Below the pieces are notes generated by a model, which was given only the letters and a program-made list of their open reading frames with translations, ran no database searches and was not told the DNA's origin. Position numbers and translations under genes: made by a program. DNA of 64,000 nt, taken from assembly GCA_028693555.1 (NCBI GenBank), contig JAQUVD010000001.1:1-64000 (forward strand), read 5' to 3'. The stretch's first letter is position 1, and each line of letters opens with the position of its first letter. Positions 8,138 to 51,889 of the stretch are shown here, one piece after another. This stretch comes from Hespellia sp. (GTDB lineage: Bacteria > Bacillota > Clostridia > Lachnospirales > Lachnospiraceae).

Positions 8138-8140
8138 TGT

Positions 8141-9073
8141 CTACGCACCTCCTAAAACCCGGCCAAGCAGTGAACCTGTATATACGACCGGATACTCCCT
8201 TCTCGTAAATATCATTCCATCAATCGGTGATATTACTTCTTCTGCCACAACACCGGACAGCGGGTCTAAGACCTCTCCAAGAACATCTCCTTCTTTGACG
8301 ATATCTCCAATCTGACATTTTGGAACATAGATGCCGGAGGTTCCTGCATTTATATATCCAACGGCTCGGTCTGAGGATATAATTGGTTCCTTTACTGACG
8401 CAACCGGTCCATCCCATAGACCTTTTTGCTTCATCAGATTGAGAATACCATCCACCAACTGATAGCCAAACTCCTTCGTGATGCGCATACCAACTCCCAT
8501 CTCGACAACAAGCGTAGGCACCCCGATGCTGTTCAGGCTGTATGCCAGTGTTGATTCTAAGACCGTTGCCGATACATGTACCCACACCAAATCAATATTC
8601 GTTAGCTTTGCGAGCGGCACTAAAGTGTCTGCTGTAATCTCATTGATACGGATCTGCGGCATTTCATTCAGAAAAATATTACTTGCATGGATATCAAAAC
8701 AGAAATCCGAACCTCTTAAATCTTCCACAACCTCTTTTGCAATCGTCTCAACCATCGGGCCTTCTTCATCACCCGGAAATACGCGGTTCATGTCAAGATC
8801 AAACATCGGTATTCCCCGTGTAATTGAATCCACCCCGAGAGGATTCAGTGCCGGATACACATCGACAATTCCTTTTAAATACTCTTTCTTTTCATTGATT
8901 CTCCGGAGCAGTTCATAGCATACAAACTGTCCTTCTAACTCATCCCCATGCGTTCCTGTAACGATTGAAATCCGTTTTTCATTTCCAGTCATCACAAGTG
9001 GTTCTACCCTCTGTTTTCGAATCCGAAGACATTCGTCAACTGGTAGTTCCTTTGATACCACTGTCTCAATCAT
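8141..9073 (-). CDS. M14 family succinylglutamate desuccinylase/aspartoacylase-like zinc hydrolase
   Basis: A 310-residue zinc-dependent amidohydrolase or carboxypeptidase of the AstE/AspA branch, which cleaves an acyl or amino-acid group from a small molecule or peptide. All expected residues are visible: TGTHGDE (His42, Glu45), DMNRVFPGD near 94, FDIH (His129) and VVEMG (Glu191). The C-terminal region, about 215-310, looks like the beta-barrel found in this branch. It is not an arginine-catabolism gene here: the neighbours are a transglutaminase, an alpha-E protein and an ATP-grasp ligase, suggesting that it trims the product of that system. Gaps are three bases on each side. Confidence 0.85.
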   Translation of the reverse strand: MIETVVSKELPVDECLRIRKQRVEPLVMTGNEKRISIVTGTHGDELEGQFVCYELLRRINEKKEYLKGIVDVYPALNPLGVDSITRGIPMFDLDMNRVFPGDEEGPMVETIAKEVVEDLRGSDFCFDIHASNIFLNEMPQIRINEITADTLVPLAKLTNIDLVWVHVSATVLESTLAYSLNSIGVPTLVVEMGVGMRITKEFGYQLVDGILNLMKQKGLWDGPVASVKEPIISSDRAVGYINAGTSGIYVPKCQIGDIVKEGDVLGEVLDPLSGVVAEEVISPIDGMIFTRREYPVVYTGSLLGRVLGGA

Positions 9074-9076
9074 GTT

Positions 9077-9853
9077 TTATATCTCCTCTACATTTACCAA
9101 TATCTGCTGTTTCTGATTTGCAGGTGACCCCATAAATACGCCCTTATCAAGAACGCAGTCTGCATAATCCCTGCCGTGAGCCAGTTTGATATAATAATCA
9201 TCGATATGCAGATTGTTCGTAGGATCAAGTCCATACCAGCCTTCTCCTGTATAGATTTCCACCCATGCATGGGTAGATCCTTCCCCAATCATAAATCCAT
9301 TTACATATCTTGCAGCAATGCCGCTCATCCTGCATAGTGCGATTAATATATGCGCATAGTCCTGACACACGCCCCGCCCTGCTTTCATCGCCTCTTCTGC
9401 GGTTGTTGATATATCCGTACTCCCTTTTACGTAAGTAAAATGCTGATATAGATACATCATAAGCTGAACAGCACGTTCCAGAGGATTTCCACACACCTTG
9501 CTGCACGCTTCTGCCGCAGCTTTAAGCGCCTGACCGGGCTCTGTGAATCTGGAAGGATATTTATACATGCTGTGCAGAACTTCTCTATGAACTTTCATTC
9601 CCTCTACTGCTGCATTTCCAACAATCTGCACTTCAAACTGTTTGTGATTGTCAAAATAATGTCCGACATATTTATGATTTCCAAACCCGTCCACCACTTC
9701 ATTCAGACAATCTGTCGGGTTGATATACCGGCTTAAAATTTGAATTTTCTGGACATCATCTGACACCGGAACACACCGAAGTGCAAAATAATGGTCATAG
9801 ATCGGTTCATCGAATCTTAAGCTCATTTCATATGTAAAACGCAGATTCTTCAT
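9077..9853 (-). CDS. Transglutaminase-like protease domain protein with Bact_transglu_N region
   Basis: A 258-residue soluble protein. The N-terminal third is the beta-rich Bact_transglu_N type. The C-terminal catalytic core shows GRGVCQDYAH (about 167-176), STHAWVEIY (about 205) and GLDPTNN (about 220), giving an intact Cys-His-Asp triad. Bacterial members act as peptidases or amide transferases. It has no signal peptide, so it is probably cytosolic. Its ATG directly follows the stop of the alpha-E gene. This combination with COG2307 and COG2308 genes is a recurring bacterial neighbourhood linked by comparative genomics to peptide ligation or processing. Confidence 0.88.
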   Translation of the reverse strand: MKNLRFTYEMSLRFDEPIYDHYFALRCVPVSDDVQKIQILSRYINPTDCLNEVVDGFGNHKYVGHYFDNHKQFEVQIVGNAAVEGMKVHREVLHSMYKYPSRFTEPGQALKAAAEACSKVCGNPLERAVQLMMYLYQHFTYVKGSTDISTTAEEAMKAGRGVCQDYAHILIALCRMSGIAARYVNGFMIGEGSTHAWVEIYTGEGWYGLDPTNNLHIDDYYIKLAHGRDYADCVLDKGVFMGSPANQKQQILVNVEEI

Positions 9854-10534
9854 TTATTTCACCTCGATTATCCCATCTAAGCAGGAAAGTGCTTCGTAAT
9901 AGCCTGTCCCTTCCTCGCTTTTTTCATTAATGATATCTGTGAGCTGATCCAATTTCTCAATATCATAATACATGTGCGTTTTGTGTATGCGCGAGACCAG
10001 CTTGTTGAATTCTTTTTCAATGTCATTGATGTGGTAATCCAGACGGATATACAGATCCATCCGTTCTACATATTTTCCACACTTCATGATATTCCTGCAG
10101 TCCTCGTCCACTACATAATCGTCTACACAGCCCCAGAAAGCAAGAAGGTAATCCAGTACCGACTGCAGTTCCAAAAGTGGCGCACGCGAAGAGCAATTTG
10201 CTTCAAAGGTGTCAATTGCCAGTTGAATATAAGCGAGTACGGTACTGCTCAATTCTTCTCTAAGCACAATTCCGTTATCATATGCCCGATTCATGTTTGA
10301 ATAAAGTGAATCAGGATTTTGTTTATCAAAAATGTACCTGTAAATAAAGTCTTCATTGCTTGAATAGATATCCGGAATATTTAATTTTTTACAATATGTT
10401 TTGTAATCCCCCTCGGACGCCTCAATCAAATGATCATAAATTCTGTAAAATTTTCGAATGGAAGTATAGACACGTTCCGTGTACCTTCCCAGCCAATATA
10501 AGTTGTCTAATTTGTTTATCGAGATAATACCCAT
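9854..10534 (-). CDS. Alpha-E domain protein (COG2307)
   Basis: A 226-residue, predicted all-helical protein. The opening NKLDNLYWLGRYTERV is the typical start of alpha-E proteins, where the conserved Arg, Glu and Trp lie. The biochemical role is unproven; the domain almost always occurs next to or fused with a circularly permuted ATP-grasp ligase and is thought to act with it. Its start lies 19 bases inside the end of the ATP-grasp gene, with AAGGAGGAGG in that gene's last codons, so the two proteins are very likely made in a coupled way. Confidence 0.88.
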   Translation of the reverse strand: MGIISINKLDNLYWLGRYTERVYTSIRKFYRIYDHLIEASEGDYKTYCKKLNIPDIYSSNEDFIYRYIFDKQNPDSLYSNMNRAYDNGIVLREELSSTVLAYIQLAIDTFEANCSSRAPLLELQSVLDYLLAFWGCVDDYVVDEDCRNIMKCGKYVERMDLYIRLDYHINDIEKEFNKLVSRIHKTHMYYDIEKLDQLTDIINEKSEEGTGYYEALSCLDGIIEVK

Positions 10535-11829
10535 GTGTCTTTAAAACCTCCTCCTTGCGATGAATTCACAATAAATGAATCTGGATTTCTGGTGAACCGG
10601 GTTAAGCCGCTCGCCCATACTTTCGTCTCTTTTCCAGATAATACAAAGGCTCGTAAATCCGCTTTTCTCGGAACAATCTTGTCCCCGTCCACAATGTCGA
10701 TATCGCGAAAATCGATGACCTCCTGTGCAATGAATCTTCTGGATTCTTTTATGATAAGCTGCTTCATATTCTCCAGTTCCTCAGCTGACAATTTATCTCC
10801 AAATACAACACCATATCCGCCGGCTTCCGCCACATCTTTAATAACCAGCTTTTTCAGATTCTGCAATACATAACTGCGGTCTTTTTCATAAAACGGAAGA
10901 TAGGTCGGCGCATTTTTAAGAATCGGTGTTTCGTGCAGGTAGTATTCAATCATTTTGGGAACAAAGTAATAAATTCCTTTATCGTCCGCTACTCCATTTC
11001 CCGGTGCATTTATAATTGCAACATTTCCTGCCCGGTAGACATCCATCAAATTCGGAATACCAATCAGTGAATCTGCTTCAAATGTCATCGGATCCAGATA
11101 TTCGTCTGAGATTCTGCGGTAAATCACACCAACTTTCTTCTTGTTTCCCATATAGTCCTTGTGGTACAGAAAATTCTTTTCGACAAACAGATCCGTATTC
11201 ATAGCCAATTCACTCTCTGTTTTTTCTGCCAGATAAGAATGTTCAAAATATGCCGCATTATAACGTCCCGGCGTCATAATCACTTTAATCCCGCCAACAT
11301 TGACATTGTCCATGACCTCTTTTAAAAGCTGTCCGTAATTTCGATTGTCACAAATCGGCGTATTTCGAAATGTCTGCGGTGATGCTCTCCTGCATAATTT
11401 TCTTGCGATCAACGGGTAGGAAGCACCTGATGGAATTCTAAGGTTATCTTCCAGAATATACCATTCATCATCCTTCCCCTGGACCAGATCAATTCCGGAA
11501 ATATGGCTGTAGATGCCTTGTGGCGGTACAATCCCCTCGCACTGTGGAAGGTATCCGGATGACACGAACACAAATTCTTCGGGTACAATCCCGTCCTTGA
11601 TAATATTCTTATCGCTATAAATGTCTTTCAAAAACAGATTCAATGCATCAACTCTCTGAATCAGCCCTTTTTCCAAATAGACAAAGTCATCATGCGTAAT
11701 TACTCTTGGTATTGCATCAAACGAAAACAGTTGTTCATGAAATTCATTATTTTTATAAATTCCAAACTTTACTCCATATCTTGCTAATAATCGATTGATA
11801 CTATCTGCATGTTCTACTAATTCATTCAT
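10516..11829 (-). CDS. Circularly permuted ATP-grasp type 2 ligase (COG2308)
   Basis: A 437-residue ATP-dependent carboxylate-amine ligase; the family forms amide or peptide-like bonds by way of an acyl phosphate. Recognisable blocks are GIYSHISGIDLVQGKDDEWY followed by ILEDNLRIPSGASY (about 103-140), the nucleotide-binding glycine-rich segment AEAGGYGVVFG (about 330-340) and the carboxy-terminal RADLRAFVLSG with SQGGGFKDTW. It is the first gene of the five-gene operon that runs down to 7202. Substrate and product are unknown. Escherichia coli relatives are fused to glutathionylspermidine-synthase-like domains, but no such fusion is seen here. Confidence 0.88.
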   Translation of the reverse strand: MNELVEHADSINRLLARYGVKFGIYKNNEFHEQLFSFDAIPRVITHDDFVYLEKGLIQRVDALNLFLKDIYSDKNIIKDGIVPEEFVFVSSGYLPQCEGIVPPQGIYSHISGIDLVQGKDDEWYILEDNLRIPSGASYPLIARKLCRRASPQTFRNTPICDNRNYGQLLKEVMDNVNVGGIKVIMTPGRYNAAYFEHSYLAEKTESELAMNTDLFVEKNFLYHKDYMGNKKKVGVIYRRISDEYLDPMTFEADSLIGIPNLMDVYRAGNVAIINAPGNGVADDKGIYYFVPKMIEYYLHETPILKNAPTYLPFYEKDRSYVLQNLKKLVIKDVAEAGGYGVVFGDKLSAEELENMKQLIIKESRRFIAQEVIDFRDIDIVDGDKIVPRKADLRAFVLSGKETKVWASGLTRFTRNPDSFIVNSSQGGGFKDTWVLSR

Positions 11830-26078: not shown

Positions 26079-27710
26079 ATGATTAGTGCAAATAATATTA
26101 CCCTCCGCGTAGGCAAGAAAGCCCTATTCGAAGATGTCAACATTAAATTTACCGAAGGCAACTGTTACGGTATGATCGGTGCAAACGGTGCAGGTAAATC
26201 TACCTTTTTAAAAATCTTATCAGGAAATTTAGAGCCGACGAACGGTGACATTGTCATCACACCGGGGGAACGTCTTTCATTCTTACAGCAGGATCATTAT
26301 AAATATGATGAGTACCTCGTTTTGGATACTGTTATCATGGGAAATGCAAGACTCTTCGAGATTATGAAAGAGAAAGAAGCTATTTACGCCAAAGAAGATT
26401 TTACCGATGAAGACGGGATGAAAGCCAGTGAATTAGAAGGCGAATTTGCAACCATGAACGGATGGGAAGCTGAGTCTGACGCTGCGACTCTTTTGAACGG
26501 TCTTGGAATCGATACGGATCTCCATTACAAATATCTAAAAGACCTGACTGGTGCTGAGAAAGTGAAAGTACTTCTTGCCCAGGCACTGTTTGGCAATCCT
26601 GACATTCTGCTTCTCGATGAGCCTACCAACCATTTGGATCTCGATGCAATTGCCTGGTTAGAGGAATTTCTGATTAACTTTGAGAATACGGTCATCGTTG
26701 TATCCCATGACCGATATTTCTTAAATAAGGTCTGTACACAGATTGCGGATATCGACTATGGAAAAATCCAGTTATATGCCGGCAACTATGATTTCTGGTA
26801 TGAATCAAGCCAGCTGATGCTCCGTCAGATGAAGGAGGCCAATAAGAAGAAAGAAGAAAAGATTAAGGAATTGCAGGACTTCATCTCTCGATTCAGCGCG
26901 AATGCATCGAAATCTAAACAGGCAACTTCCCGTAAGAAGGCTCTTGAAAAAATTGAACTGGATGATATTCGTCCATCCAGTCGTAAATATCCTTACATTG
27001 ACTTCCGCCCAGAACGTGAAATCGGAAATGAAGTTCTCACGGTAGAAGGTCTTTCTAAGACAATCGATGGTGTGAAGATTCTCGACAATTTGGAATTTAC
27101 AATTAACCGTGAAGATAAAGTTGCATTTGTCGGCGGAAATGAATTGGCCAAGACTGTACTGTTCAAGATTTTAATTGGAGAGATGGAACCGGATGCAGGA
27201 ACCTACAAATGGGGTGTCACGACATCACAGGGCTATTTTCCAAAAGACTTCGGAAAAGAATTCGACAACGATTACACCATCACAGAATGGCTGACACAGT
27301 TTTCTGAGAATAAGGACGCAACTTATGTACGTGGTTTTCTGGGAAGAATGCTTTTTGCAGGAGATGACGGTGTCAAGAAATTAAAAGTATTATCCGGTGG
27401 TGAAAAGGTGCGTTGTCTTCTTTCGAAGATGATGATTTCTGCTTCAAATGTACTGATCTTAGATGAGCCGACCAATCATCTGGACATGGAATCCATCACA
27501 GCACTCAACAACGGTATGATTAAATTTCCAGGTGTTCTTCTCTTCTCTTCTCGAGATCATCAGATTGTAGAGACGACTGCAAACCGAATCATGGAGATTG
27601 TTCCTGGTGGTAAACTGATTGACAAGATCAGCACTTACGATGAATATCTTGAAAATGATGAGATGGCAAGAAAGCGTCAGACCTATACAATGGACGAAGA
27701 GGACAACTAA
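26079..27710 (+). CDS. ABC-F family ATPase (YbiT/YkpA-like)
   Basis: A 543-residue protein with two ATPase domains and no membrane part; ABC-F proteins act on the ribosome. The first Walker A is GANGAGKST (about 36-44), and Walker B LLLDEPTNHLD is followed by the linker of charged helices (about 245-310). The second half has GGNELAKT in place of a normal Walker A, an intact LSGGEKVRCLL signature and LILDEPTNHLD. A degenerate second Walker A is known in one ABC-F branch and need not mean loss of function. The start chosen is ATG 26079 after AAGGAG; the longer upstream frame lacks a site. luxS follows with one base between. Confidence 0.93.
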   Translation: MISANNITLRVGKKALFEDVNIKFTEGNCYGMIGANGAGKSTFLKILSGNLEPTNGDIVITPGERLSFLQQDHYKYDEYLVLDTVIMGNARLFEIMKEKEAIYAKEDFTDEDGMKASELEGEFATMNGWEAESDAATLLNGLGIDTDLHYKYLKDLTGAEKVKVLLAQALFGNPDILLLDEPTNHLDLDAIAWLEEFLINFENTVIVVSHDRYFLNKVCTQIADIDYGKIQLYAGNYDFWYESSQLMLRQMKEANKKKEEKIKELQDFISRFSANASKSKQATSRKKALEKIELDDIRPSSRKYPYIDFRPEREIGNEVLTVEGLSKTIDGVKILDNLEFTINREDKVAFVGGNELAKTVLFKILIGEMEPDAGTYKWGVTTSQGYFPKDFGKEFDNDYTITEWLTQFSENKDATYVRGFLGRMLFAGDDGVKKLKVLSGGEKVRCLLSKMMISASNVLILDEPTNHLDMESITALNNGMIKFPGVLLFSSRDHQIVETTANRIMEIVPGGKLIDKISTYDEYLENDEMARKRQTYTMDEEDN

Positions 27711-27711
27711 G

Positions 27712-28191
27712 ATGGAAAAGATTACAAGTTTTACAATCAATCACCTGTCTTTGCAGCCCGGAATCTATGTTTCAAGAAAAGATCCGATCGGCGATCAGGT
27801 CATCACCACCTTTGACCTGCGCATGACAAGTCCGAATGAAGAACCGGTTATGAATACGGCTGAGATGCATACGATTGAGCATCTCGCCGCCACATTTCTA
27901 CGTAACCACCACAGCTTTGGTTCCAAAATTATTTACTTTGGACCAATGGGCTGTCGTACCGGTTTTTATTTACTCCTTTCCGGAGATTACGAATCCCGCG
28001 ATATCGTACCATTGATGCGGGAGATGTTCCGGTTCATTGCTGATTTTAAGGGAGATGTTCCGGGAGCTTCTGCAAGAGACTGCGGAAACTATCTTGATAT
28101 GAATCTTCCGATGGCTAACTATCTCGCGGACAGATTTTTAAATGAAGTATTAATGGATATTGACAATTCCAGACTGATTTATCCAGAATAA
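27712..28191 (+). CDS. luxS: S-ribosylhomocysteine lyase LuxS
   Basis: A 159-residue enzyme that splits S-ribosylhomocysteine into homocysteine and DPD, the precursor of autoinducer-2, and completes the activated methyl cycle. The metal motif HTIEH (about 54-58), the Cys in ARDCGNYLDMNL and the N-terminal SFTINHLSLQPG are intact. The start is the ATG one base after the ABC-F stop, with GAGGA in the last ABC-F codons, so translation is coupled. The stop codon is the first element of the terminator hairpin. Confidence 0.97.
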   Translation: MEKITSFTINHLSLQPGIYVSRKDPIGDQVITTFDLRMTSPNEEPVMNTAEMHTIEHLAATFLRNHHSFGSKIIYFGPMGCRTGFYLLLSGDYESRDIVPLMREMFRFIADFKGDVPGASARDCGNYLDMNLPMANYLADRFLNEVLMDIDNSRLIYPE

Positions 28192-28233
28192 AAAAGTTGT
28201 ATTGGTGATTTTCCTCGCCAATACAACTTTTTT
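28191..28233. terminator. Bidirectional terminator between luxS and DUF5662
   Basis: A 15-bp stem (28191-28205 with 28218-28232) begins with five A residues and ends with six T residues, so it works for both converging genes. The luxS stop codon and the stop codon of the opposing gene both touch it. Confidence 0.88.
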
Positions 28234-28765
28234 ATTTGTTTTTTAATATTCTTTTTCTGATATAGGAAAATGTTCTCTTCTCGCCTTTATCCGCAAGCAT
28301 GCGAAGCATTCCTTCCAGTAACCTTTCCGTCTCCGGATGAATCACATAATAACCTCTTCCACGTTCAAAATATGCCAGAGGTGCCTGATTCGTATAGGTT
28401 TCACCCATATAGATTTTACTTGCCGCAATCCGATCCATGAACATTTCAACAACGTATTTTTCCGGCATCTTCATCCCTGCCAGAATTTTATCATCTTCCA
28501 TACTGTAGTCGATCCAATATTCGTAGTGATGCTTATTGCGGCCTTTATGATGCAGCCATGCCGAAGAATAACCGATATCCTCTCGCTGTGCATTGTTTGG
28601 GCTTCTGGTTCCCTGATAATATTTACATCCAACACAGAATTCCGTTAAGGTATACTTTGAGAGATCATGCATCAATCCCTGTTTATATAATCCCACTTGA
28701 AAGCATCCCTTCATCACCAGGAACTTATGACTTGTAATTGTGCAAAAATGCTGCCATATTTTCAT
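28232..28765 (-). CDS. DUF5662 family protein
   Basis: A 177-residue protein of unknown function that I recognise as the DUF5662 type. It is rich in His, Tyr and aromatic residues: GLMHDLSKYTLTEF (about 30-43), AWLHHKGRNKHHYEYW (about 69-84) and the later MFMDRIAASKIYMG. The spaced HD/HH pairs resemble a metal-binding helical hydrolase (HD-like), but this is inference. It converges with luxS and lies 19 bases downstream of the debranching-like gene, so it may belong to that operon. Confidence 0.72.
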   Translation of the reverse strand: MKIWQHFCTITSHKFLVMKGCFQVGLYKQGLMHDLSKYTLTEFCVGCKYYQGTRSPNNAQREDIGYSSAWLHHKGRNKHHYEYWIDYSMEDDKILAGMKMPEKYVVEMFMDRIAASKIYMGETYTNQAPLAYFERGRGYYVIHPETERLLEGMLRMLADKGEKRTFSYIRKRILKNK

Positions 28766-28784: not shown

Positions 28785-30485
28785 CTATTTCCCAACTAAA
28801 AATACCGCTGTCCTCTCTTCAACTTCCAATAGTTTCTGATTCTTTAACAGTTTGCATTTTGGAAGCAGTCCGTCCTTGGTATCCAGCACCTGATACCATT
28901 TTTTACGGTCAGGAAGAGAAGGCAGTGCATAAGTGTGGCTCAGCCAATGCATATTGTATGCAACAAAACATTCATCGTCTTTCATTGCTGCACCACTATA
29001 CATCACGCCAAGCTGTCTGCTCGATATGATTGCCGGTACACGCCATGCACTTTCTCCATGATAGGATACGTCCGGTATCCCGCAGGAAGTCTGATCCGTT
29101 CCCAGAAGCTGATTTTCTTTGTGGAGTATTGGATGATCCCTGCGAAGCTGAATCAGATCTTTCACATATTGTAACAGTTCCGAATCTTCTCTGCATTTTG
29201 ACCAATTCTGCCATGCAGTCTCATTATCCTGACAGTAGACATTATTGTTGCCATTTTGTGTATTGCCAAATTCGTCTCCCGCGAGAATACAAGGCATTCC
29301 CTGCGCCGTCAGCAGCAGGAAAAATGCATTCCGGACCTGATTTTTTCTGAGCTGAACCACCGCTTTTTTACGACTTGGTCCTTCTGCTCCACAATTCCAG
29401 CTATAATTATAGTCCGGGCCATCCTGGTTCTGCTCCCCGTTTTTCTCATTATGCTTTCCATCATATGACACAACATCCTGAAGTGTAAATCCCGTATGAT
29501 CTGTAATATAATTGTAAACGCCATCTTCTCCGGTATTACGCCTCAGCGCCCACATAACATCTGAAACCATCCCCTCATCGCCCTTTAAGAACTGCCTCAT
29601 CACATTCTGAAAGCGTTCTTCTTTCTTCATGATCTTCGTATTTGCAAGCAATGGGTTCTGCTTGATACTCTGCATTGGAGCGTTGTAAGGATTCAGGATA
29701 AATCCATCCACATGATACTCCAGCACATAGTATTCCAGACACTTTTCAACAAGCTGTGTGCGAATTCCCTCTTCAAATGGAAAATACAGTACGACTTCAA
29801 TCCCGGCCTGATGCATCTGCCGGATCATGTCCTTGAGTTCATTCACCGCTGAATCTCCGGCAGCATAAGATTCTTTCGGCGCAAAATAAAAGCCGCTTCC
29901 ATATCCCCAGTAATTCGTATAATTCTTCTTCCTGTCTTCAAATTCATAGATTGGCATACATTGAATCTGATTGATCCCAAGCTCTTTTAGATACGGAATC
30001 TTCTCGGCAACACCGGCAAAGGTTCCTTTGTGCTTCACCTTCGAAGAGCGGTGCTTCGTAAAGCCTCTCACATGCAGACTGTATGCCACCACCTCGTGAT
30101 AGGGAATATTGAGCGGATGGTCACCATTCCATTCGTATGGACCGGCAGAAATTCGTGCATGAATTGGATTCGTGTGATTCTCCATCTCTTCGCCAAACGT
30201 TTTTCTTCCGGTTAATTCTCTGGCATATGGTTCCACATACGGCACTTCATCTATATAGAAATTATATTCATAATCTTCAAAATCAAAATCAGAAACCTCT
30301 AAAAATCTTACCGTACCAATTGCATCCTTTTCTGGCATTTTATATATCTGATCAGGCACTTCATCGCCTTTTTTATATAAGCGTAATTCACATTTCTTCT
30401 CCTTCGGTACATGAATCGCAAAATTTACACGATTCCCGTTCACTGATATCCCCAATGGAGCTGCATAGCCCTGTCCTCGTCTCAT
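28785..30485 (-). CDS. GH13 glycogen-debranching/isoamylase-like protein without catalytic residues (probable pseudoenzyme)
   Basis: A 566-residue protein with an N-terminal CBM48-like beta domain (about 5-90) and a GH13 barrel close to GlgX/isoamylase. Landmarks such as EYHVDGF, TNYWGY and DNETAWQNW are clear. Every catalytic position has changed: region II GFRFD reads GFILN (Asn265 for the nucleophile), region III AEAWD reads KKEE (Lys288 for the acid/base), and region IV HDGFTL reads HTGFTL (Thr331). The region I loop with DxxxNH is missing. The frame is intact. It may bind glucans without cutting them. It follows a sugar-binding lipoprotein gene by 12 bases. Confidence 0.85.
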   Translation of the reverse strand: MRRGQGYAAPLGISVNGNRVNFAIHVPKEKKCELRLYKKGDEVPDQIYKMPEKDAIGTVRFLEVSDFDFEDYEYNFYIDEVPYVEPYARELTGRKTFGEEMENHTNPIHARISAGPYEWNGDHPLNIPYHEVVAYSLHVRGFTKHRSSKVKHKGTFAGVAEKIPYLKELGINQIQCMPIYEFEDRKKNYTNYWGYGSGFYFAPKESYAAGDSAVNELKDMIRQMHQAGIEVVLYFPFEEGIRTQLVEKCLEYYVLEYHVDGFILNPYNAPMQSIKQNPLLANTKIMKKEERFQNVMRQFLKGDEGMVSDVMWALRRNTGEDGVYNYITDHTGFTLQDVVSYDGKHNEKNGEQNQDGPDYNYSWNCGAEGPSRKKAVVQLRKNQVRNAFFLLLTAQGMPCILAGDEFGNTQNGNNNVYCQDNETAWQNWSKCREDSELLQYVKDLIQLRRDHPILHKENQLLGTDQTSCGIPDVSYHGESAWRVPAIISSRQLGVMYSGAAMKDDECFVAYNMHWLSHTYALPSLPDRKKWYQVLDTKDGLLPKCKLLKNQKLLEVEERTAVFLVGK

Positions 30486-30497
30486 ATACTTTCCTTC

Positions 30498-31496
30498 CTA
30501 CTGCCAGCCATCTGTTCCATATAACCCTACATTTGTTCGGTCAATTAAAAATGTGTCTTCGTAGACCATCTTCTCATAATCGTCTCCATTCAATACCGCA
30601 AACGCAGTATTTGCTGCTGTCTTTCCAATGTTAATCGGGGATTGCGCTCCCGTGCCGACGATTGGGCTTGTTCCTTTTGCGATCTCAGCCTTCACATCTG
30701 GTGAACCATCCACTCCATAAATCAGGATTTCATTTCGATTCGCCTGCGTGACAGCTTCCAACGCACCAAGTGCCATCTGATCATTTCCACACATAATCGC
30801 TTCCAATTTGTCATTTACAGCTAAAATCCTTGCGACCTCCGTCTTGGCTCTGTCTTTCTCCCCGGCGGCTTCGACACGTTCTAACACCTCAAACCCGCAT
30901 CCTGCAATCGCCTCTTCAAATCCTGTAATCCTGTCGATCTGTGAATTCATGACCTGACTTTCCAGCACCACAACGCTGCCGCCATTTGGTTTGCGATTCA
31001 CTAAATCTTCCCCGCACACATAACCTGCATTCTTATTATCTGACCCGATAAATGCAGTAACATGATCAATATCCTTCACCTCTGTATCAATATTGATAAT
31101 TGGAATATCGGCTTCATTCAATGCATCAATGCCGGGCTGAATTGCTTCCCAGTCGACCGGGCATAAGAAAACACCGTCCACCCCATCTGTAATCATCTGA
31201 TTAATCTGCTCCAGTTGAGTAGTACAGTCACCTGCTGCATCATAAGTAACCAGCATTGAGCCCTGTTCCTTTACAACTGTTTCAATTGATAATTTTAATG
31301 ATTCAAAATATGGATTGTTCATATCAATACCGGCATATCCGAATGTATATGCTGTGGTTTCCTGTGAATCTTCTGTTTCCGTTTTATCTTCATCTTCCAC
31401 AACGCTGTCCGGCATTCCGGAAGTTTTTTTGCATGCACATAACATGACTGTTCCTAATACAATTACAAGAATTGTGCTTAATATTCGTTTTTTCAT
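30498..31496 (-). CDS. RbsB-like sugar-binding lipoprotein
   Basis: A 332-residue periplasmic-binding-protein family 4 member. The signal peptide MKKRILSTILVIVLGTVML ends in a lipobox-like LCAC, giving lipid-modified Cys22. The mature part has the sugar-binder pattern FGYAGIDMNNPYFESLKLS (about 52-70), IPIINIDTEV, NIGKTAANTAF and a C-terminal hinge. No ABC permease or ATPase genes follow; instead the next gene is the catalytically altered debranching-like protein. It could therefore be a sensor or an orphan component. A promoter is visible at 31516-31543. Confidence 0.88.
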   Translation of the reverse strand: MKKRILSTILVIVLGTVMLCACKKTSGMPDSVVEDEDKTETEDSQETTAYTFGYAGIDMNNPYFESLKLSIETVVKEQGSMLVTYDAAGDCTTQLEQINQMITDGVDGVFLCPVDWEAIQPGIDALNEADIPIINIDTEVKDIDHVTAFIGSDNKNAGYVCGEDLVNRKPNGGSVVVLESQVMNSQIDRITGFEEAIAGCGFEVLERVEAAGEKDRAKTEVARILAVNDKLEAIMCGNDQMALGALEAVTQANRNEILIYGVDGSPDVKAEIAKGTSPIVGTGAQSPINIGKTAANTAFAVLNGDDYEKMVYEDTFLIDRTNVGLYGTDGWQ

Positions 31497-31515
31497 TTCT
31501 AATCCTCCACACTAT

Positions 31516-31543
31516 ATTCTATCGTGTTTTGAATGATTGTCAA
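31516..31543 (-). promoter_or_regulatory. Promoter of the sugar-binding lipoprotein operon
   Basis: On the minus strand a perfect TTGACA (31538-31543) and TAGAAT (31516-31521) are separated by 16 bases, just before the ribosome binding site of the lipoprotein gene. Confidence 0.65.
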
Positions 31544-31549
31544 TAGATT

Positions 31550-31584
31550 AAAAAAATCAACCGCCTGTTTTGACGATTGATTTT
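31550..31584 (-). terminator. Terminator after pduO-like gene
   Basis: On the minus strand an 8-bp stem (31577-31584 with 31553-31560) is followed by a run of T residues. It lies about 10 bases past the stop codon of the adenosyltransferase gene. Confidence 0.7.
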
Positions 31585-31594
31585 AGCAAACACC

Positions 31595-32629
31595 TTATAA
31601 AATACTCTCAAGCATTTTCAGACCATACTCTGCTGTTTCATGATCTTCTTCTCCGGTACCTCCGCTCACACCAAGTCCGCCAATAATCTTCCCCTGATAA
31701 ACCAAAGGAATACCTCCGCCAAAAATGATAAGCTTCCCGTTATCTGTATTGTCCACTCCATAAAATGTCTGTCCCGGCTGTGCTAATTTGGACAGCTCCA
31801 TCGTTGACATCTTGACCGCAACTGACGTATATGCTTTCTTCATAGAAATGTCAAAGCTGGCAATAAATGCGTCATCCATCGCATGAACTGCAATCATATT
31901 GCCATCCGGTCCGCAGACACTCATCACAGACTTTCTTCCGTGTTCCCGTGAATATGTCTCGAGCAGTTCAATCAGCTTCTTTGCCGAATCCAGCGAAATA
32001 CGATTCACAACATCGATCTCTCTTAAGACTCTTTGTACTACCTGCTCTTCCGAAAGACCTGTGCTTCTTCCGGCATCCGTATGCTTTTGCATCTTCGGTA
32101 CAGCTCCGGATTTATGCAGATAATCCACATATCTTGCATTCACATAGAGATAATCGGACAATCGGTTTAAATACTGCTTTGTCATCAGATCAATCGAGTG
32201 TCTCTTTGCGACATCGACCATGCACCGTTCTGCCCGTCTTGTCACGGTCCGTGCGACATCAAGCTCCGCCGATGCCTTGCAGCCACCCGGAAGTACAAAC
32301 ACCTTCTCACGTGGAAATAATGCCTCAAGGCGATCGATCTCATGCTCCAATTCTGCAACATCATTTTGTGAGAGTCTGTATTTCTGATTATAAGAATCTG
32401 CAATTCCTGCCATAACCGTTATCAGCTTCTCCTGAATCTGTTCCAGCATCGGAATCATATCAACGCAGTCTTCCTGACTTTTCACAACACCCAGATGACT
32501 GGTTAATTCATCTATAGACCCGAGTAATTGGATACGATCATCTGCTTTTGATACGCTCTGAGCACCTTTTAAAGAAGTCATGCCCCTGTCGCCACTTTTG
32601 GTGTAAATACTCATCTTCTTCTCTTCCAT
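31595..32629 (-). CDS. pduO: PduO-type cob(I)alamin adenosyltransferase fused to a GlcG/HbpS-like domain
   Basis: A 344-residue two-domain protein. Residues 1-190 are a PduO-type adenosyltransferase that makes adenosylcobalamin from cob(I)alamin and ATP: TKSGDRGMTSL (about 10-20), then RRAERCMV and LNRLSDYLYVNARYV. Residues 200-344 are a GlcG/HbpS-like domain, with FYGVDNTDNGKLIIFGGGIP and GKIIGGLGVSGGTGEEDHE, which binds haem or cobalamin in relatives. This is the full-length PduO layout, but no diol-dehydratase or microcompartment genes are nearby. It has a very good promoter and its own terminator. Confidence 0.9.
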   Translation of the reverse strand: MEEKKMSIYTKSGDRGMTSLKGAQSVSKADDRIQLLGSIDELTSHLGVVKSQEDCVDMIPMLEQIQEKLITVMAGIADSYNQKYRLSQNDVAELEHEIDRLEALFPREKVFVLPGGCKASAELDVARTVTRRAERCMVDVAKRHSIDLMTKQYLNRLSDYLYVNARYVDYLHKSGAVPKMQKHTDAGRSTGLSEEQVVQRVLREIDVVNRISLDSAKKLIELLETYSREHGRKSVMSVCGPDGNMIAVHAMDDAFIASFDISMKKAYTSVAVKMSTMELSKLAQPGQTFYGVDNTDNGKLIIFGGGIPLVYQGKIIGGLGVSGGTGEEDHETAEYGLKMLESIL

Positions 32630-46557: not shown

Positions 46558-47325
46558 TTACGTATGACTTCTGCGGTACTGGTGCTTCCACTTTTCGATC
46601 ACCTTCATGGTGTGTTCTACACGCGTATTTTTCTCGATTTCTTTACACTCCTGATGCATCTCCATGTTCAGATTTGCAAGCTCTTCATCCTTTGTCAGAA
46701 GGATATGATACTCCTCAAGTGACATGTAGCGGTTAGATGCATACAGATAAGATTTCTTTAATTTCGGGTCCTGCAGGATATCATATGCGCGGTCATACAT
46801 CTTGGCAGCCTCCTGATATAAGAACAGCTTTCCATAGGCAGCACCTAAATTGGCATAGATTCTCCCATAGAATCCCTTGTCCACGGATTCATCTGTCTCC
46901 GCCACCAAGATTGACTGATAGACCAAAATTGCTTCTTCTATCTCACCGCTCTCAAGCAGGTTATCCCCTTTGAACTTCTGTCTTTCGATATCCTTCTGAT
47001 TCTTCAGGCGTTCCAGAACATTCTGGATTCGAATCATTTCATTCTCGCCATACATATTGGAATTCGTCAGTATCGTCAGAACAAATTTCTCAATGGAGCC
47101 TCTCATCTGAATCACATCGATTAATTGCTGCGCCAGATTATGAAGTGCCAGCTCCTCGTCAAGCCAGATGCAGAGCTGTTCATTCATAATTGTATAATCA
47201 ATCAGATAAAGATTGTTACACAGATAAAAGCATAATTCTTCTATGGAATATATTTTACAATGGATTCTTGTAATCTCATATGGATGTTTTGCCTGTTTAT
47301 TGTGACAAAGAATTAAACTTCCCAT
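46558..47325 (-). CDS. TPR-like helical protein, third gene of the DUF5717/DUF5716 module
   Basis: A 255-residue protein of unknown function. The N-terminal half, from GSLILCHNKQAKHPYEI to about 95, looks like a compact helical domain. Residues about 118-195 hold at least two TPR-like helix pairs: GDNLLESGEIEEAILVYQSI and YANLGAAYGKLFLYQEAAKM. The C-terminus is helical and charged. There is no signal peptide. A strong AGGAGG site supports the GTTTAATT-proximal ATG at 47323-47325, which lies inside the end of the DUF5716 gene (29-base overlap), so the two are translationally coupled. Confidence 0.8.
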   Translation of the reverse strand: MGSLILCHNKQAKHPYEITRIHCKIYSIEELCFYLCNNLYLIDYTIMNEQLCIWLDEELALHNLAQQLIDVIQMRGSIEKFVLTILTNSNMYGENEMIRIQNVLERLKNQKDIERQKFKGDNLLESGEIEEAILVYQSILVAETDESVDKGFYGRIYANLGAAYGKLFLYQEAAKMYDRAYDILQDPKLKKSYLYASNRYMSLEEYHILLTKDEELANLNMEMHQECKEIEKNTRVEHTMKVIEKWKHQYRRSHT

Positions 47326-48583
47326 CGTTTCCTCCTAAATGAATCGTTCGTGTAACCTCAAAATCAGTCGCCTGGAAAAACTCTCCAAAGCCGATATCCT
47401 TGATTGTAATATCGCATGTTTTCTCATCAATGAACTTTGTTTCAATTTGCAGACGCACAGAATATTCCACTCTGCTTGGAAGCTTGTCAAGCTGGATCTT
47501 TTCTGTCTGAACGGTACCCTGTGTCAGGGATTCCACATGTATTTCGAGTTCATCTGTATCCTGCAGCAGTACCTGCCACTTGTGATTCGACTCATACCAG
47601 TGCGCCCCCCATGCAACGATCGGCACCCATTTATCCTGTCCGTTCACCCGCATTGCAACCGTAATCTGATCCGTCAGCTTACTTTCATCAAGATATACCG
47701 GCGTCTCTGTATTGACCAGCATATTACGGTAAGCTGTGTAGCAGGCGCCTTTACTGTAGAGGTTATTCCCAATAAACGCTCTTCTTCCGTTACAGAGCAC
47801 GCGCAATGACATCGGATACCAGTTATTCTCGAATCCCTCTCCGGTCAGAAATACCGAAGAAACAATTCGCTTATCAAATACGCTTTCCACAAATTTTTTA
47901 AACTGAATATCCGCCTCCTGTGCCTTGTCCTCGTTTAACACCGGATAGACCGCCGCCAGTTCTTTCATATGCGCTCTGGCAACTTCATCAACCGTTACGA
48001 AGGTGGTCTTATTCATTCCAAATTCAGGCTTTAATCTGCGCAGCATATACGCGCACACTTCGTTTCTGTCACAGTAGAATAATGCAGCGTCATACTGCCA
48101 TAGCTCTTTGGGCTGATAAAATAAATAATTGCAAAAACTCTCTTTGTAATCCTGAATGTAAATCTGATCTGAATCAATATTCAATTGAATCGCAATTCTT
48201 CTGAGCAGATCGGCGGTCTTCTTATCAACCGTCGGTACACTGAAAACAATTCCCTCAATATGCTGAAAATCCTGTAGTGACATTTTCACAAAACGATACA
48301 GAAGGTCTTCTGCCTCATAGATTTCGTCGCCAAACCGCACCTGCTCCCCATCAAGACTTCGCGAGAGAAGCTGAGAGGCTGTATACCCCTCCTTGATTGT
48401 CACAAGACGTTTTGCTTCTTTACCGTAAGCCCAGGTTCCCCTGAGATTACTAATAATGAGCGGAATCTGATAGTTATCACTATCGACCTCCAGCGTTACC
48501 GGCTCCACCTGTTGATCATTATAATAACTGATCTGGCAGCTTTTATCACTCAAATCATAACCAATTATCGTTCCCTGTGGCAC
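47297..48583 (-). CDS. DUF5716 family protein, Hsp70/actin-like fold predicted
   Basis: A 428-residue protein of the DUF5716 type, known to me mainly from Lachnospiraceae and without a known function. Its layout suggests the actin/Hsp70 ATPase fold: GYDLSDKSCQISYYN (about 8-22) resembles phosphate-1, DAALFYCDRNEVCAYM (about 166-181) resembles phosphate-2, and SSVFLTGEGFENNWYP (about 242-257) resembles the adenosine motif. The last 120 residues look like an Hsp70-type beta domain. The usual catalytic Asp/Thr residues are only partly matched. Translation starts at GTG after AGGAGGTG. It lies 18 bases after the DUF5717 gene. Confidence 0.78.
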   Translation of the reverse strand: MPQGTIIGYDLSDKSCQISYYNDQQVEPVTLEVDSDNYQIPLIISNLRGTWAYGKEAKRLVTIKEGYTASQLLSRSLDGEQVRFGDEIYEAEDLLYRFVKMSLQDFQHIEGIVFSVPTVDKKTADLLRRIAIQLNIDSDQIYIQDYKESFCNYLFYQPKELWQYDAALFYCDRNEVCAYMLRRLKPEFGMNKTTFVTVDEVARAHMKELAAVYPVLNEDKAQEADIQFKKFVESVFDKRIVSSVFLTGEGFENNWYPMSLRVLCNGRRAFIGNNLYSKGACYTAYRNMLVNTETPVYLDESKLTDQITVAMRVNGQDKWVPIVAWGAHWYESNHKWQVLLQDTDELEIHVESLTQGTVQTEKIQLDKLPSRVEYSVRLQIETKFIDEKTCDITIKDIGFGEFFQATDFEVTRTIHLGGNDGKFNSLSQ

Positions 48584-48601
48584 GTCCGCTCACCTCCTGT
48601 T

Positions 48602-51600
48602 TTATTCGTATAACTTAAACATCTCTGCCGCAATCGCATCTTCTTTTGCATAAATATCCATTCTGCGATCCCGTGCTTCCTCTTTGGAAAGGATCATTCT
48701 GTTTAATTTTCCATAACGTCCTTTTTCCCCTTTTACATGCTTTTTCACACATGTATGAACTTCGCTTGTATATACATTTCCATCGATTGTTTCCTGAAAA
48801 TAATACTTGAGCTTTTCTCTTGCATATAAAATGAATTTCTTCACATAAATTGTATCATACATCGGAAGCAGACTGACTGACTGATATTCTCCGTCTTCCT
48901 CACCGTTTGTAATCTGGTAATACAGCACGACACGGCTGTCTTTCTGTCCCTTATATTCAATTAATGTTTTGTCCCACAATTGGAATTCAAGCAGCCATTC
49001 CTCGTTATACTTCAGATAGAATGGGAAATAAATCTGTCTTGTGCAGAGATCCTGAAGAAATTCCTTAAGCACAGTCTTAAGATTCCCACTGTATTCGCGT
49101 TCTGAATAGTATTTGAGAACTGCAATCTGGCAAATATCCTGAATGAACTCACCCTTTTTATATTCGTTACAGACAATATCAATAATTCCTTTGTGAATCT
49201 TACGGTTTCTTACCACATATTCTCTTGCCACAAAATTCAGATATGCCTGCTGCAGTCGGAAATAAGCTCCCTCCGAATAATAATCTTCAAAGATTCCTTC
49301 CTCTCCGACCAGTTCTTCTGAGAAAAGCATCTGCGTCAGAATTCTTTCTGAGAGCTGATGCGTGTGAATCTCGTATTCCTTTGCTTCCCTCCAGAGCCGC
49401 TTCATCTGCGTTGTTGTCCCGGAAAAGAAATTTGTCAGATATGTCAGCGTAATCTTATCATATTGATCCGCCTTAAATAATTCATAACACAGATAAGTCA
49501 GAAAATCATTGCTGTTATAATTAATCTCACGGATGGTCTTACTGCAGAGCGTAAGCAAATCTTCCTCTTTAAAATTTTCATAGTTTTCTTCCTGAACCAG
49601 TTCCAGCGTAAATTCCTTTTTTTCATTCGCATTCGCCCCGGACTGAAGCGAATTCAAAAAGCGCTTGCACATATCCATATAGCGAAGTTCATAGAACAGA
49701 CGCTTACTCTCATATGGAATTGAGTCCATGAAATGTCTTCCGTCCTTATTCTCCCACACAAGACGATCTGTCTTTGCGTACAAGAATACCTGTGCCCCCT
49801 GTTCTGTGTAGGGCACCTTCTGTGTAATGGTTCCATCTTCCCCAATCACCTGAAGGAACTTCATGTTTGGAACTTTTGTCTTGATTTCATAAGCATGACA
49901 GATATCGTAAAGTGCCTCAATGCGTTTTGGATTCATGACATCTTCCGTTATGAATCGCTTATAAATCACACGGAGCTGTGCATTGATTCTTCGCTTTTCA
50001 AGCTGGTTCCACGCGAAATTCTCCATATCTTCTCGATAATGTGCGTAAATCTCACTTGTCTCATCTTCATTATCAATCAGATTCGAATAAAGAAGCGCAC
50101 ATTTTTGGTAATCCAGAGAATTTCCATGCATAAAATAAAGATAGACCGATCTTGGCAGTGGCTTTTGAAAACGCTCTTCATTAATTGTGAGCATATAGTA
50201 CTCATAGAGCTGTGCAATCTTCAATTCTGAATCGACTGCTTTTTCATACCATTTAAAATATTCCTGTTCCGAACAATTCCCCTTGATCAGCAATGTACAG
50301 ATTGCAGTCAGTATCATAGGCTCTTCAAACATTTTGTAAGCTCCGGCCAGCACGTCATACAAATGTTTGTCAAATTGTTTCTGCTGGCTTGCCAGGTTCG
50401 CGGTATACAGTGCCAGCTCCTTCGTCAGCATTTTGTATTTGAGTGCAAATGCAAGAACATGGACTTCAAATTCTCCAAGGCGTTTCAGTGTATTGCTCTT
50501 CTCCCTGTAGCATTTGTATGCCTCCATGTATAGGGCAACATTGTGCGTTCCCCTGTAATACTGTTGTTCCAGCATGCGTAGTCTCTCGTGAAACAATTTA
50601 AATTCCTGATCGACATTCACTAGCATGCACAAAATCAGGCCATTATCCGGATTTTTCAGATAAGTGCGCGACAATTCCTCCGCAACCTTCCTCTGTCCCA
50701 CAGAATCATTGCTTAACATCGTGGTAAGATAAAGATAATAAGAGCTGAGTTCTACATTCTTTCCGATTGCAAAACGGTTGTAATTATAGGACTCTAAAAT
50801 CCATTTTGCTTCTTCCTGCCGTTGTCCCAGCAGGTTGATATGTGCCTGAATCAAAAGAAACCTTTCGTTTCCTTTGTCTTTTTCGCGAATTGCTTCAATC
50901 TGACGAAGTGCGCTGTCTACCCAGCTATTGAGATCATATTTGCCTGCTTCATAAGCAAGATAACTCTTCAAAAGAGAGGCAAGCTGAATATCAATCAAAC
51001 GGTAATCCTCATCCGCCACTGAACTTGTAGATACCACAACTTCATATGTCAGAGTCTCATATGGCGATTCCAGTATGATCTGTCCGTAATTGTTACCTGC
51101 ATGCAGTTTTTCATGTTTGATGATGTATTCTACACGATAAGAGCTTCCAATAAATTCATCCGTTGTAATTCTACTGTGTTCTACTGTAAGGAAATCCCCG
51201 ACTGTATGGACATCAATTGCCATAAAGCCCCATGTATTTTTTGAAATCGTAAGAATTTCTTTGCGATCTTCGTCTTTTGATGTAAATGCACGACTCTCTT
51301 CCTGCATCATGAGGAATATCTTCTCTTTGTGCTTACAGCCAACCAGGAACTCCTCCAGTGCCTGCTGGTCCAGTTCCCATTTACGCATGTTTTCATAAAG
51401 TGCACGGATACGTTTCTCTTCGTATTTTAAAATCTCATAAAATTCGCGGGAACGAAACAGCTTCTCAGCCTCAGCAAAATCTTTGAATGCCAGCTTCTTG
51501 AAGTCCTCCAGACTCTGTACTTTTCCATAAGCCGTCATCACAAACGGCTTTTCAATAATCGCAGTAAATGCGACCTGATACTCTCCGCCATTACATACAA

Positions 51601-51889
51601 TGGTAAAGGTTCCATGTTCCACATGTCCGGGAAGCAGTCCGTGACCATCATAGGTAAAATAAACATTTACAGGATTACCTTCAAATCCCTGTTCCTCACA
51701 TTGCACACGAAAAGAAGATGGATAGACCAGTCCCCTGATTTTTCCATCTGCCTGATTCTGCAGCGAGAAGCTTCCTTTATATAATTCCCCTTCACCGACC
51801 CGAAGTATGAGTCGGGTTTCCGGAAAAATAATGTCTGGCTTTGAAACCTGAAAATCCCCTTTAGCAAAACGATTAATTTTTGTCTTCAA
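48602..51889 (-). CDS. DUF5717 family protein, very large (1095 residues)
   Basis: A 1095-residue protein of the DUF5717 type with no known function. Residues about 15-115 look like an Ig-like beta domain (IFPETRLILRVGEGELYKGS); a second beta segment is at about 205-285. About 300-900 is predicted to be a long array of helical repeats (SEL1/TPR-like), and the C-terminal 150 residues return to beta structure. There is no signal peptide and no membrane helix. Translation starts at TTG (51887-51889) after AGGTG. Its constant neighbour is the DUF5716 protein, so the two probably form one large complex. Confidence 0.78.
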   Translation of the reverse strand: MKTKINRFAKGDFQVSKPDIIFPETRLILRVGEGELYKGSFSLQNQADGKIRGLVYPSSFRVQCEEQGFEGNPVNVYFTYDGHGLLPGHVEHGTFTIVCNGGEYQVAFTAIIEKPFVMTAYGKVQSLEDFKKLAFKDFAEAEKLFRSREFYEILKYEEKRIRALYENMRKWELDQQALEEFLVGCKHKEKIFLMMQEESRAFTSKDEDRKEILTISKNTWGFMAIDVHTVGDFLTVEHSRITTDEFIGSSYRVEYIIKHEKLHAGNNYGQIILESPYETLTYEVVVSTSSVADEDYRLIDIQLASLLKSYLAYEAGKYDLNSWVDSALRQIEAIREKDKGNERFLLIQAHINLLGQRQEEAKWILESYNYNRFAIGKNVELSSYYLYLTTMLSNDSVGQRKVAEELSRTYLKNPDNGLILCMLVNVDQEFKLFHERLRMLEQQYYRGTHNVALYMEAYKCYREKSNTLKRLGEFEVHVLAFALKYKMLTKELALYTANLASQQKQFDKHLYDVLAGAYKMFEEPMILTAICTLLIKGNCSEQEYFKWYEKAVDSELKIAQLYEYYMLTINEERFQKPLPRSVYLYFMHGNSLDYQKCALLYSNLIDNEDETSEIYAHYREDMENFAWNQLEKRRINAQLRVIYKRFITEDVMNPKRIEALYDICHAYEIKTKVPNMKFLQVIGEDGTITQKVPYTEQGAQVFLYAKTDRLVWENKDGRHFMDSIPYESKRLFYELRYMDMCKRFLNSLQSGANANEKKEFTLELVQEENYENFKEEDLLTLCSKTIREINYNSNDFLTYLCYELFKADQYDKITLTYLTNFFSGTTTQMKRLWREAKEYEIHTHQLSERILTQMLFSEELVGEEGIFEDYYSEGAYFRLQQAYLNFVAREYVVRNRKIHKGIIDIVCNEYKKGEFIQDICQIAVLKYYSEREYSGNLKTVLKEFLQDLCTRQIYFPFYLKYNEEWLLEFQLWDKTLIEYKGQKDSRVVLYYQITNGEEDGEYQSVSLLPMYDTIYVKKFILYAREKLKYYFQETIDGNVYTSEVHTCVKKHVKGEKGRYGKLNRMILSKEEARDRRMDIYAKEDAIAAEMFKLYE

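Follow-up and report, generated by a model that had tools for sequence, protein, structure and literature searches.

A catalytically dead GlgX/isoamylase paralogue of Lachnospiraceae with retained glucan contacts, a candidate glycogen lectin

The locus and the lost active site

The stretch of DNA analysed here comprises 64,000 nucleotides from Hespellia sp., a member of the Lachnospiraceae (assembly GCA_028693555.1, contig JAQUVD010000001.1, positions 1 to 64,000), and will be called the window. On its minus strand lies a gene with an ATG start (28785..30485) that encodes a GlgX/isoamylase-type GH13 pseudoenzyme of 566 amino acids, in the following termed dead GlgX. Upstream of it a gene for an RbsB-like (PF13407) lipoprotein of 332 amino acids was found (30498..31496, minus strand), and downstream a gene for a DUF5662 (PF18907) protein of 177 amino acids (28232..28765, minus strand). 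In the direction of transcription, the order is lipoprotein, 12 bases, dead GlgX, 19 bases, DUF5662. An earlier note on this DNA, made from the letters alone, had described the dead GlgX gene as intact and as lying 12 bases past the lipoprotein gene, and both statements hold. The same note had read the locus as a pair of genes; the pairing with the lipoprotein is real, but the third gene had been missed.

Three further elements frame these genes, all of them as consensus matches only. A promoter-like site, TTGACA-16-TAGAAT, precedes the lipoprotein gene (31516..31543, minus strand, an 11/12 match); its start at 31543 is also where the stretch singled out in the earlier note ends. A terminator-like hairpin (31553..31584, minus strand) stands between the upstream PduO/HbpS gene and the lipoprotein gene, and a second one of 20 pairs (28188..28235) lies where the DUF5662 and luxS genes converge. 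The latter was reported on the plus strand; A and T runs flank it and it may serve both strands. Altogether, these elements outline a probable three-gene operon, closed by the second hairpin, with DUF5662 as its third gene, and dead GlgX is in all likelihood co-transcribed with the lipoprotein gene.

Profile searches recognized the protein in part. Pfam matched an alpha-amylase domain at residues 147-233 only, and the score against NCBIfam TIGR02100 (GlgX) was 324.9 bits, half of the cut-off of 640.9 and thus below threshold. The AlphaFold2 model, built from 74 family members, has a mean predicted local distance difference test score (pLDDT) of 93.4 and a predicted template modelling score (pTM) of 0.93. 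Aligned with VIA-align, where rows within 1 Z count as tied, it matched rice ISA1 (9lfn_B) with a Z of 49.3 and a root-mean-square deviation of 1.9 over 551 residues, followed by Chlamydomonas ISA1 (Z 48.6), Streptomyces venezuelae GlgX (46.1) and E. coli GlgX (44.0). On the model confidence and these scores, dead GlgX is predicted to be a complete isoamylase-type body with the full-length GlgX/isoamylase fold. With bacterial GlgX and archaeal TreX it shares the N-terminal beta domain, the barrel, the C-domain and the outer sugar contacts, at 28-33% identity in the structural alignment; absent are the nucleophile, the acid/base residue, the stabiliser, the region I His and the region I loop.

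In the case of the catalytic acids, the window protein holds none of the three (Asp nucleophile, Glu acid/base, Asp stabiliser). N265 (codon 29691..29693, minus strand) occupies the nucleophile position and T331 (codon 29493..29495, minus strand) that of the transition-state stabiliser Asp; they align with residues 363 and 471 of TreX and with the corresponding columns of the intact GlgX paralogues. K288 (codon 29622..29624, minus strand) lies beside the deleted region III and reaches the acid/base position by gapless extension only, whereas the multiple alignment has a deletion there; the acid is absent either way. The replacement of three acids claimed in the earlier note thus stands for N265 and T331, while K288 is not an aligned substitute. 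The missing region I loop was seen correctly: of about 42 residues in intact GlgX, 3 are left, and the region I Asp and His are gone.

The same loss was found throughout the relatives. We compared 176 GlgX-type proteins, of which 123 are of the dead type, with a loop of at most 3 residues, and 53 are intact, with 42 loop residues; an intermediate between the two forms was not found among them. The intact set keeps region I D+H, region II R+D and region III E in 53/53 and region IV H+D in 52/53, the remaining one having a gap. Among the 123 dead-type proteins, 1 retains the nucleophile Asp (53/53 in the intact set), 14 have the acid/base Glu and 16 the stabiliser Asp; the three acids never occur together. 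The nucleophile column holds 14 different letters, and the columns of N265, H330 and T331 are conserved at just 0.42-0.45. Conservation confined to the dead type was seen at only 10 positions, with no obvious new acid pair among them. Alignment thus confirms that dead GlgX lacks the catalytic machinery, as had been proposed. Recent decay in this genome alone, which the earlier note had named as the finding that would speak against it, is ruled out by the recurrence of the dead state in 123 homologues, all without the full triad.

Spread, sugar contacts and co-occurrence with glycogen enzymes

To describe the ancestry of the dead type, 101 rows were placed in a quick maximum-likelihood tree, with 74 dead-type rows of the first locus set and 27 of the 53 intact ones; 48 dead-type rows of the second set were left out. 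Locus L126, which has an 874-amino-acid frame, was left out of alignment and tree, so that 74 of the 75 dead-type loci were used. A branch with a Shimodaira-Hasegawa-like approximate likelihood ratio test (SH-aLRT) value of 100 separated all 74 dead-type rows from the intact ones. Rooted on the intact rows, the tree shows one split and no direction.

A family profile (E<=1e-140) matched 230 of 299 Lachnospiraceae genomes, or 229 of 298 genera; of the 69 genomes without a match, 20 were listed. Across the order (245 genomes sampled), a full-length match of 593-863 bits was obtained for 69 of 72 Lachnospiraceae, the other three being listed with none. The 173 genomes of other families gave no dead-type match; their best match was split and scored 360 bits, as an intact GlgX does. 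At class level, 16 of 392 sampled genomes matched, all of them Lachnospiraceae. A second locus set held at least 80 loci, two of which (L190 and L231) could be assigned neither to the dead nor to the intact type. Its dead-type loci, at least 48, carry the taxon labels Lachnospiraceae (36), Eubacteriaceae (2) and Clostridiaceae (1), or are without a family (9), while the intact GlgX loci from the same search, at least 30, come from several phyla. A locus search with the single window protein as query gave 25 pattern matches and 0 confirmed ones. Overall, the dead type is an old, conserved fixture of the Lachnospiraceae, restricted to that family in the samples searched.

In the literature searched (Lachnospiraceae, glycogen debranching, catalytically inactive), we found no description of this family. 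Two glgX homologues are listed for Blautia obeum in the available part of PMC10395257, one of which might be of the dead type. The CAZy label GH13_38, considered at first as a lead, was dropped, as none of the papers listed for that label concerned this group.

Important insight can be gained from the residues that hold the sugar in an active relative. The complex of S. venezuelae GlgX with acarbose defines these contacts (PMC9530166, as far as given in the available part of the paper); judging from a motif match, the numbers of the chain are those of the paper plus 3. Trp222, Tyr224, Glu470, Asn534 and Tyr536 align with W193, Y195, E351, N415 and Y417 of dead GlgX. W193 (codon 29907..29909, minus strand) is kept in 123/123 dead-type proteins, the outer contact E351 (codon 29433..29435, minus strand) in 122/123, and the outer contacts N415 and Y417 (codons N415 to Y417, 29235..29243, minus strand) in 123/123 and 121/123, respectively. 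Y195 is kept in 109/123, the other 14 having Phe. The conservation of E351 is telling, since Trp predominates in this column among the intact GlgX proteins compared (40 of 53). Of the five contacts, four fall among the 46 of 566 positions that are conserved at >=98%. The pattern, chemistry lost and outer grip retained, would fit a lectin and is not proof of one.

Several points weigh against such a reading. The hypergeometric probability of the above overlap, 1.8e-4, rests on contacts from one paper and ignores ancestry. Part of the sugar-gripping -1 site is gone (the equivalents of His271 and Trp380), the His449 equivalent, H330, is kept in just 52/123, and the Arg212 equivalent is K187 in the window protein and variable in the rest of the dead type. 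Contacts such as GNNN-YCQDN are invariant in intact enzymes too and may be kept for folding. Finally, the presence of dead GlgX is not tied to glycogen synthesis: a GlgC match was found in 68/68 genomes (67 over cut-off), with or without dead GlgX.

These 68 genomes, at >=97% completeness, were chosen by hand (46 with and 22 without dead GlgX), and their counts are not family-wide rates. Intact GlgX, with a line drawn by ourselves at 600 bits, was found in 22 of the 46 genomes with dead GlgX and in 1 of the 22 without; the curated cut-off gives 17/68 instead of 23/68 genomes. The window genome has one intact GlgX, of 684 amino acids, on another contig. Because the other 24 of the 46 genomes, at 97-100% completeness, are without intact GlgX, dead GlgX does not need it. 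Among these 24, type I pullulanase is over cut-off in 3 and weakly matched in 1, and a strong GDE_C match was found in none, three having weak ones of 20-26 bits. In 20 of them (including G040, G125, G147 and G157, the genomes of loci L055, L065, L068 and L071), GlgC was found but no intact GlgX, no strong GDE_C match and no type I pullulanase match at E<=1e-60.

The dead GlgX gene is also under constraint. An open frame was found at all 75 dead-type loci examined. In 66 genome pairs with both genes, mean pairwise identity was 0.565 for dead GlgX, 0.634 for intact GlgX and 0.544 for PcrA; in the same comparison, it was 0.521 for the lipoprotein and 0.672 for DUF5662 (36 pairs). Dead GlgX evolves somewhat faster than the intact enzyme, yet its rate is unremarkable for a functional gene.

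The lipoprotein and DUF5662

The lipoprotein has a lipobox-type signal (LCAC, with Cys22 as the lipid-bearing residue) ahead of its PF13407 domain. The cleft residues N61, D137, R189, N238, D263 and Q285 are kept in 27-28 of 28 homologues, and C22, K23, G27 and D30, a motif after the lipid cysteine, in 28/28. Such conservation points to a ligand shared by the homologues and, perhaps, to a membrane contact that has been preserved as well. The fold family and several cleft residues are shared with RbsB-type proteins (2ioy, E. coli RbsB). Arg90 and two Phe, which we take to form part of the ribose site of RbsB, are not kept. Ribose as the ligand was thus rejected: its site is only partly kept, and plain ribose is probably not bound. 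Next to the end of the operon, luxS (27619-28191, plus strand) is convergent with it, and luxS lies within three genes in 21/75 dead-type loci. Autoinducer-2 (AI-2) is a candidate ligand worth testing, though luxS is also present where the lipoprotein is not.

For binding proteins of CUT2 ATP-binding cassette (ABC) transporters, the RbsB family, a cognate permease and ATPase would be expected in the locus. None adjoins the lipoprotein gene, in agreement with the earlier note; as to partners elsewhere, 21 RbsC-type permease matches were found in the rest of the genome.

The pairing of lipoprotein and dead GlgX is conserved in one part of the tree. In the subclade of short proteins (SH-aLRT 100), a lipoprotein gene precedes dead GlgX in 29 of 31 loci, one of these genes being broken; for the other two members, L067 and L083, the stretch examined contains no such gene. 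None of the 45 'long' loci, those outside the 30 counted as short (L083 is among them), has a lipoprotein gene upstream within three genes. Because the loci outside the short subclade have none, the lipoprotein is a later, derived addition. At the broken locus (L070:3077-4332), the two halves of the lipoprotein gene lie in different frames and are separated by extra bases, with an intact gene for dead GlgX downstream; for this reason, the alignment of lipoproteins does not include L070.

The core function put forward in the earlier note, a protein working with a sugar sensor, does not survive these observations: 45 loci do without the lipoprotein, and its export signal has no counterpart on the enzyme, where no signal peptide was seen (read by eye). 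Going by these signals, the two proteins should sit on opposite sides of the membrane. Direct contact between them is not expected, because an export signal was seen on the lipoprotein only.

DUF5662 is the most widespread neighbour: it follows dead GlgX on the same strand in 41/75 loci. Its model has a pLDDT of 87.0 and a pTM of 0.84. Foldseek gave no match for it at E<=0.001, and the best VIA rows, all weak (Z 5.9 and below), were HD-GYP and other HD-superfamily domains. The 41 homologues share, among others, H6, H13, H33, D34, H72, H73, H79, H80, D86 and D111. DUF5662 as a metal-dependent HD-like hydrolase is, on the model, a lead and not a result. No paper on DUF5662 was found in the literature searched.

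Possible roles of dead GlgX and other genes of the window

We hold, with moderate confidence, that dead GlgX is a family-wide non-catalytic GlgX paralogue of single origin, kept as a cytosolic glycogen lectin that binds alpha-glucan. The glucan-binding role that the earlier note had suggested is graded as probable, on the near-invariant glucan contacts outside the triad. In the proposed course of events, the GH13 triad and the region I loop would have been lost once from a GlgX paralogue, at the root of the Lachnospiraceae or close to it. The paralogue would then have been kept as a soluble cytosolic binder of alpha-1,4/1,6-glucan (glycogen or limit dextrins), with the outer half of the former substrate cleft as its binding surface. 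Most likely it would act on glycogen as a lectin that shields branch regions or recruits other glycogen enzymes to the polymer, and a like role has been proposed for plant ISA1/ISA2 complexes. In the subclade of the window, further shortening would have been followed by placement behind the exported RbsB-like lipoprotein and ahead of DUF5662 in one operon, so that the level of dead GlgX would probably be set jointly with a receptor for a small sugar-like ligand.

The closest parallel is plant ISA2, which is likewise an ancient dead isoamylase paralogue of one lineage with a kept glucan-binding surface; the match in glucan residues was judged by alignment at the GlgX acarbose contacts, ISA2's own site aside. 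There are also clear differences. Plant ISA2 belongs to another domain of life and pairs with ISA1, whereas about half of the checked genomes with dead GlgX are without an intact partner. According to the part of PMC12510319 available, ISA2 has an extra N-terminal beta-sandwich, for which the 566 amino acids of dead GlgX leave no room: the alignment of the model with ISA1 and GlgX already starts at residue 1, with no space for an additional N-terminal domain. A second comparison is S. venezuelae GlgX, which has the same fold and is an example of a GlgX that receives a signal (PMC9530166, available part), but is an active enzyme, unlike dead GlgX. Binding of cyclic di-GMP as in Streptomyces was rejected: the contacts Arg438 and Gly436 of that source fall by offset at E319 and N317, these two residues being the ones checked.

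A bolder version of the lectin reading seems unlikely to us and is put forward tentatively. According to it, Lachnospiraceae would have independently evolved an ISA2-like glycogen lectin without need of an active GlgX, and in one subclade a common operon would have linked it with an HD-like hydrolase and with a sugar receptor that is exported, giving a unit that reads sugar outside and glycogen inside.

The alternatives differ in how well they agree with the above counts. Heavy chains of amino-acid transporters use a GH13 body as a protein-protein module, and dead GlgX could similarly be a scaffold or anchor outside carbohydrate chemistry, with DUF5662 or TraX as partners. The gene order speaks for it, as TraX follows dead GlgX in 21/75 loci and both neighbours recur in otherwise different contexts. 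However, the sugar contacts would then hardly be expected to be near-invariant, and DUF5662, found in 41/46 genomes with dead GlgX, is also found in 20/22 without it. These counts, with DUF5662 missing in 5/46, led us to reject an obligate DUF5662 partnership, and we regard the scaffold in general as rather improbable.

Still less probable is a regulatory subunit like ISA2, which would assemble into a heteromer with whichever active debranching enzyme, GlgX or pullulanase, the cell contains. In plants, ISA2, itself a catalytically dead paralogue of isoamylase, acts in this way (PMC12510319, available part), the same fold family gave the best structural match, and the window genome does carry its 684-amino-acid GlgX. 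Against this stand the 24 of 46 genomes without intact GlgX, of which 3 have a type I pullulanase over cut-off; a strong GDE_C match was found in none of the 24. For roughly every second genome with dead GlgX, GlgX as an obligate partner is thus contradicted, while a facultative one is compatible with the co-occurrence data.

We consider it very unlikely that dead GlgX has retained enzymatic activity, be it through catalytic residues moved to other positions or in another reaction. The barrel is intact in the model, and the 20 of 24 GlgX-less genomes without a type I pullulanase match or strong GDE_C could seem to call for such an activity. However, these debranching enzymes are also missing from most genomes without dead GlgX, substitutions are unrestricted at the active-site positions, with 14 letters in the nucleophile column, and the 10 dead-type-specific positions offer no obvious new acid pair. 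A degenerating pseudogene product, for which the lost triad might speak, can be dismissed almost with certainty in view of open frames at 75/75 loci, full-length matches in 229/298 genera and an identity close to that of PcrA.

A non-catalytic paralogue across most of a family, often without an active copy, would offer a simple bacterial system for the non-catalytic role of isoamylases, a role addressed in plants in the literature searched. Because automatic annotation tends to call dead GlgX a debranching enzyme, counts of glycogen-pathway genes in this dominant gut family are probably inflated. How glycogen is debranched is a question raised by the 20 of 24 GlgX-less genomes with GlgC, and equally by genomes without dead GlgX.

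Other genes of the window were noted in passing. Adjacent to the operon, a PduO-type cobalamin adenosyltransferase is fused to an HbpS-like domain (31595-32629, minus strand); it adjoins the operon in only 2/75 loci. Further away, a DUF5716 gene stands beside a DUF5717 gene of 1095 amino acids (47297-51889, minus strand), both of unknown function in Pfam. At 7202-11829 (minus strand), two tandem AstE/AspA-like genes are followed on the same strand by transglutaminase-like and circularly permuted ATP-grasp genes, which together look like a peptide- or amide-forming cluster.

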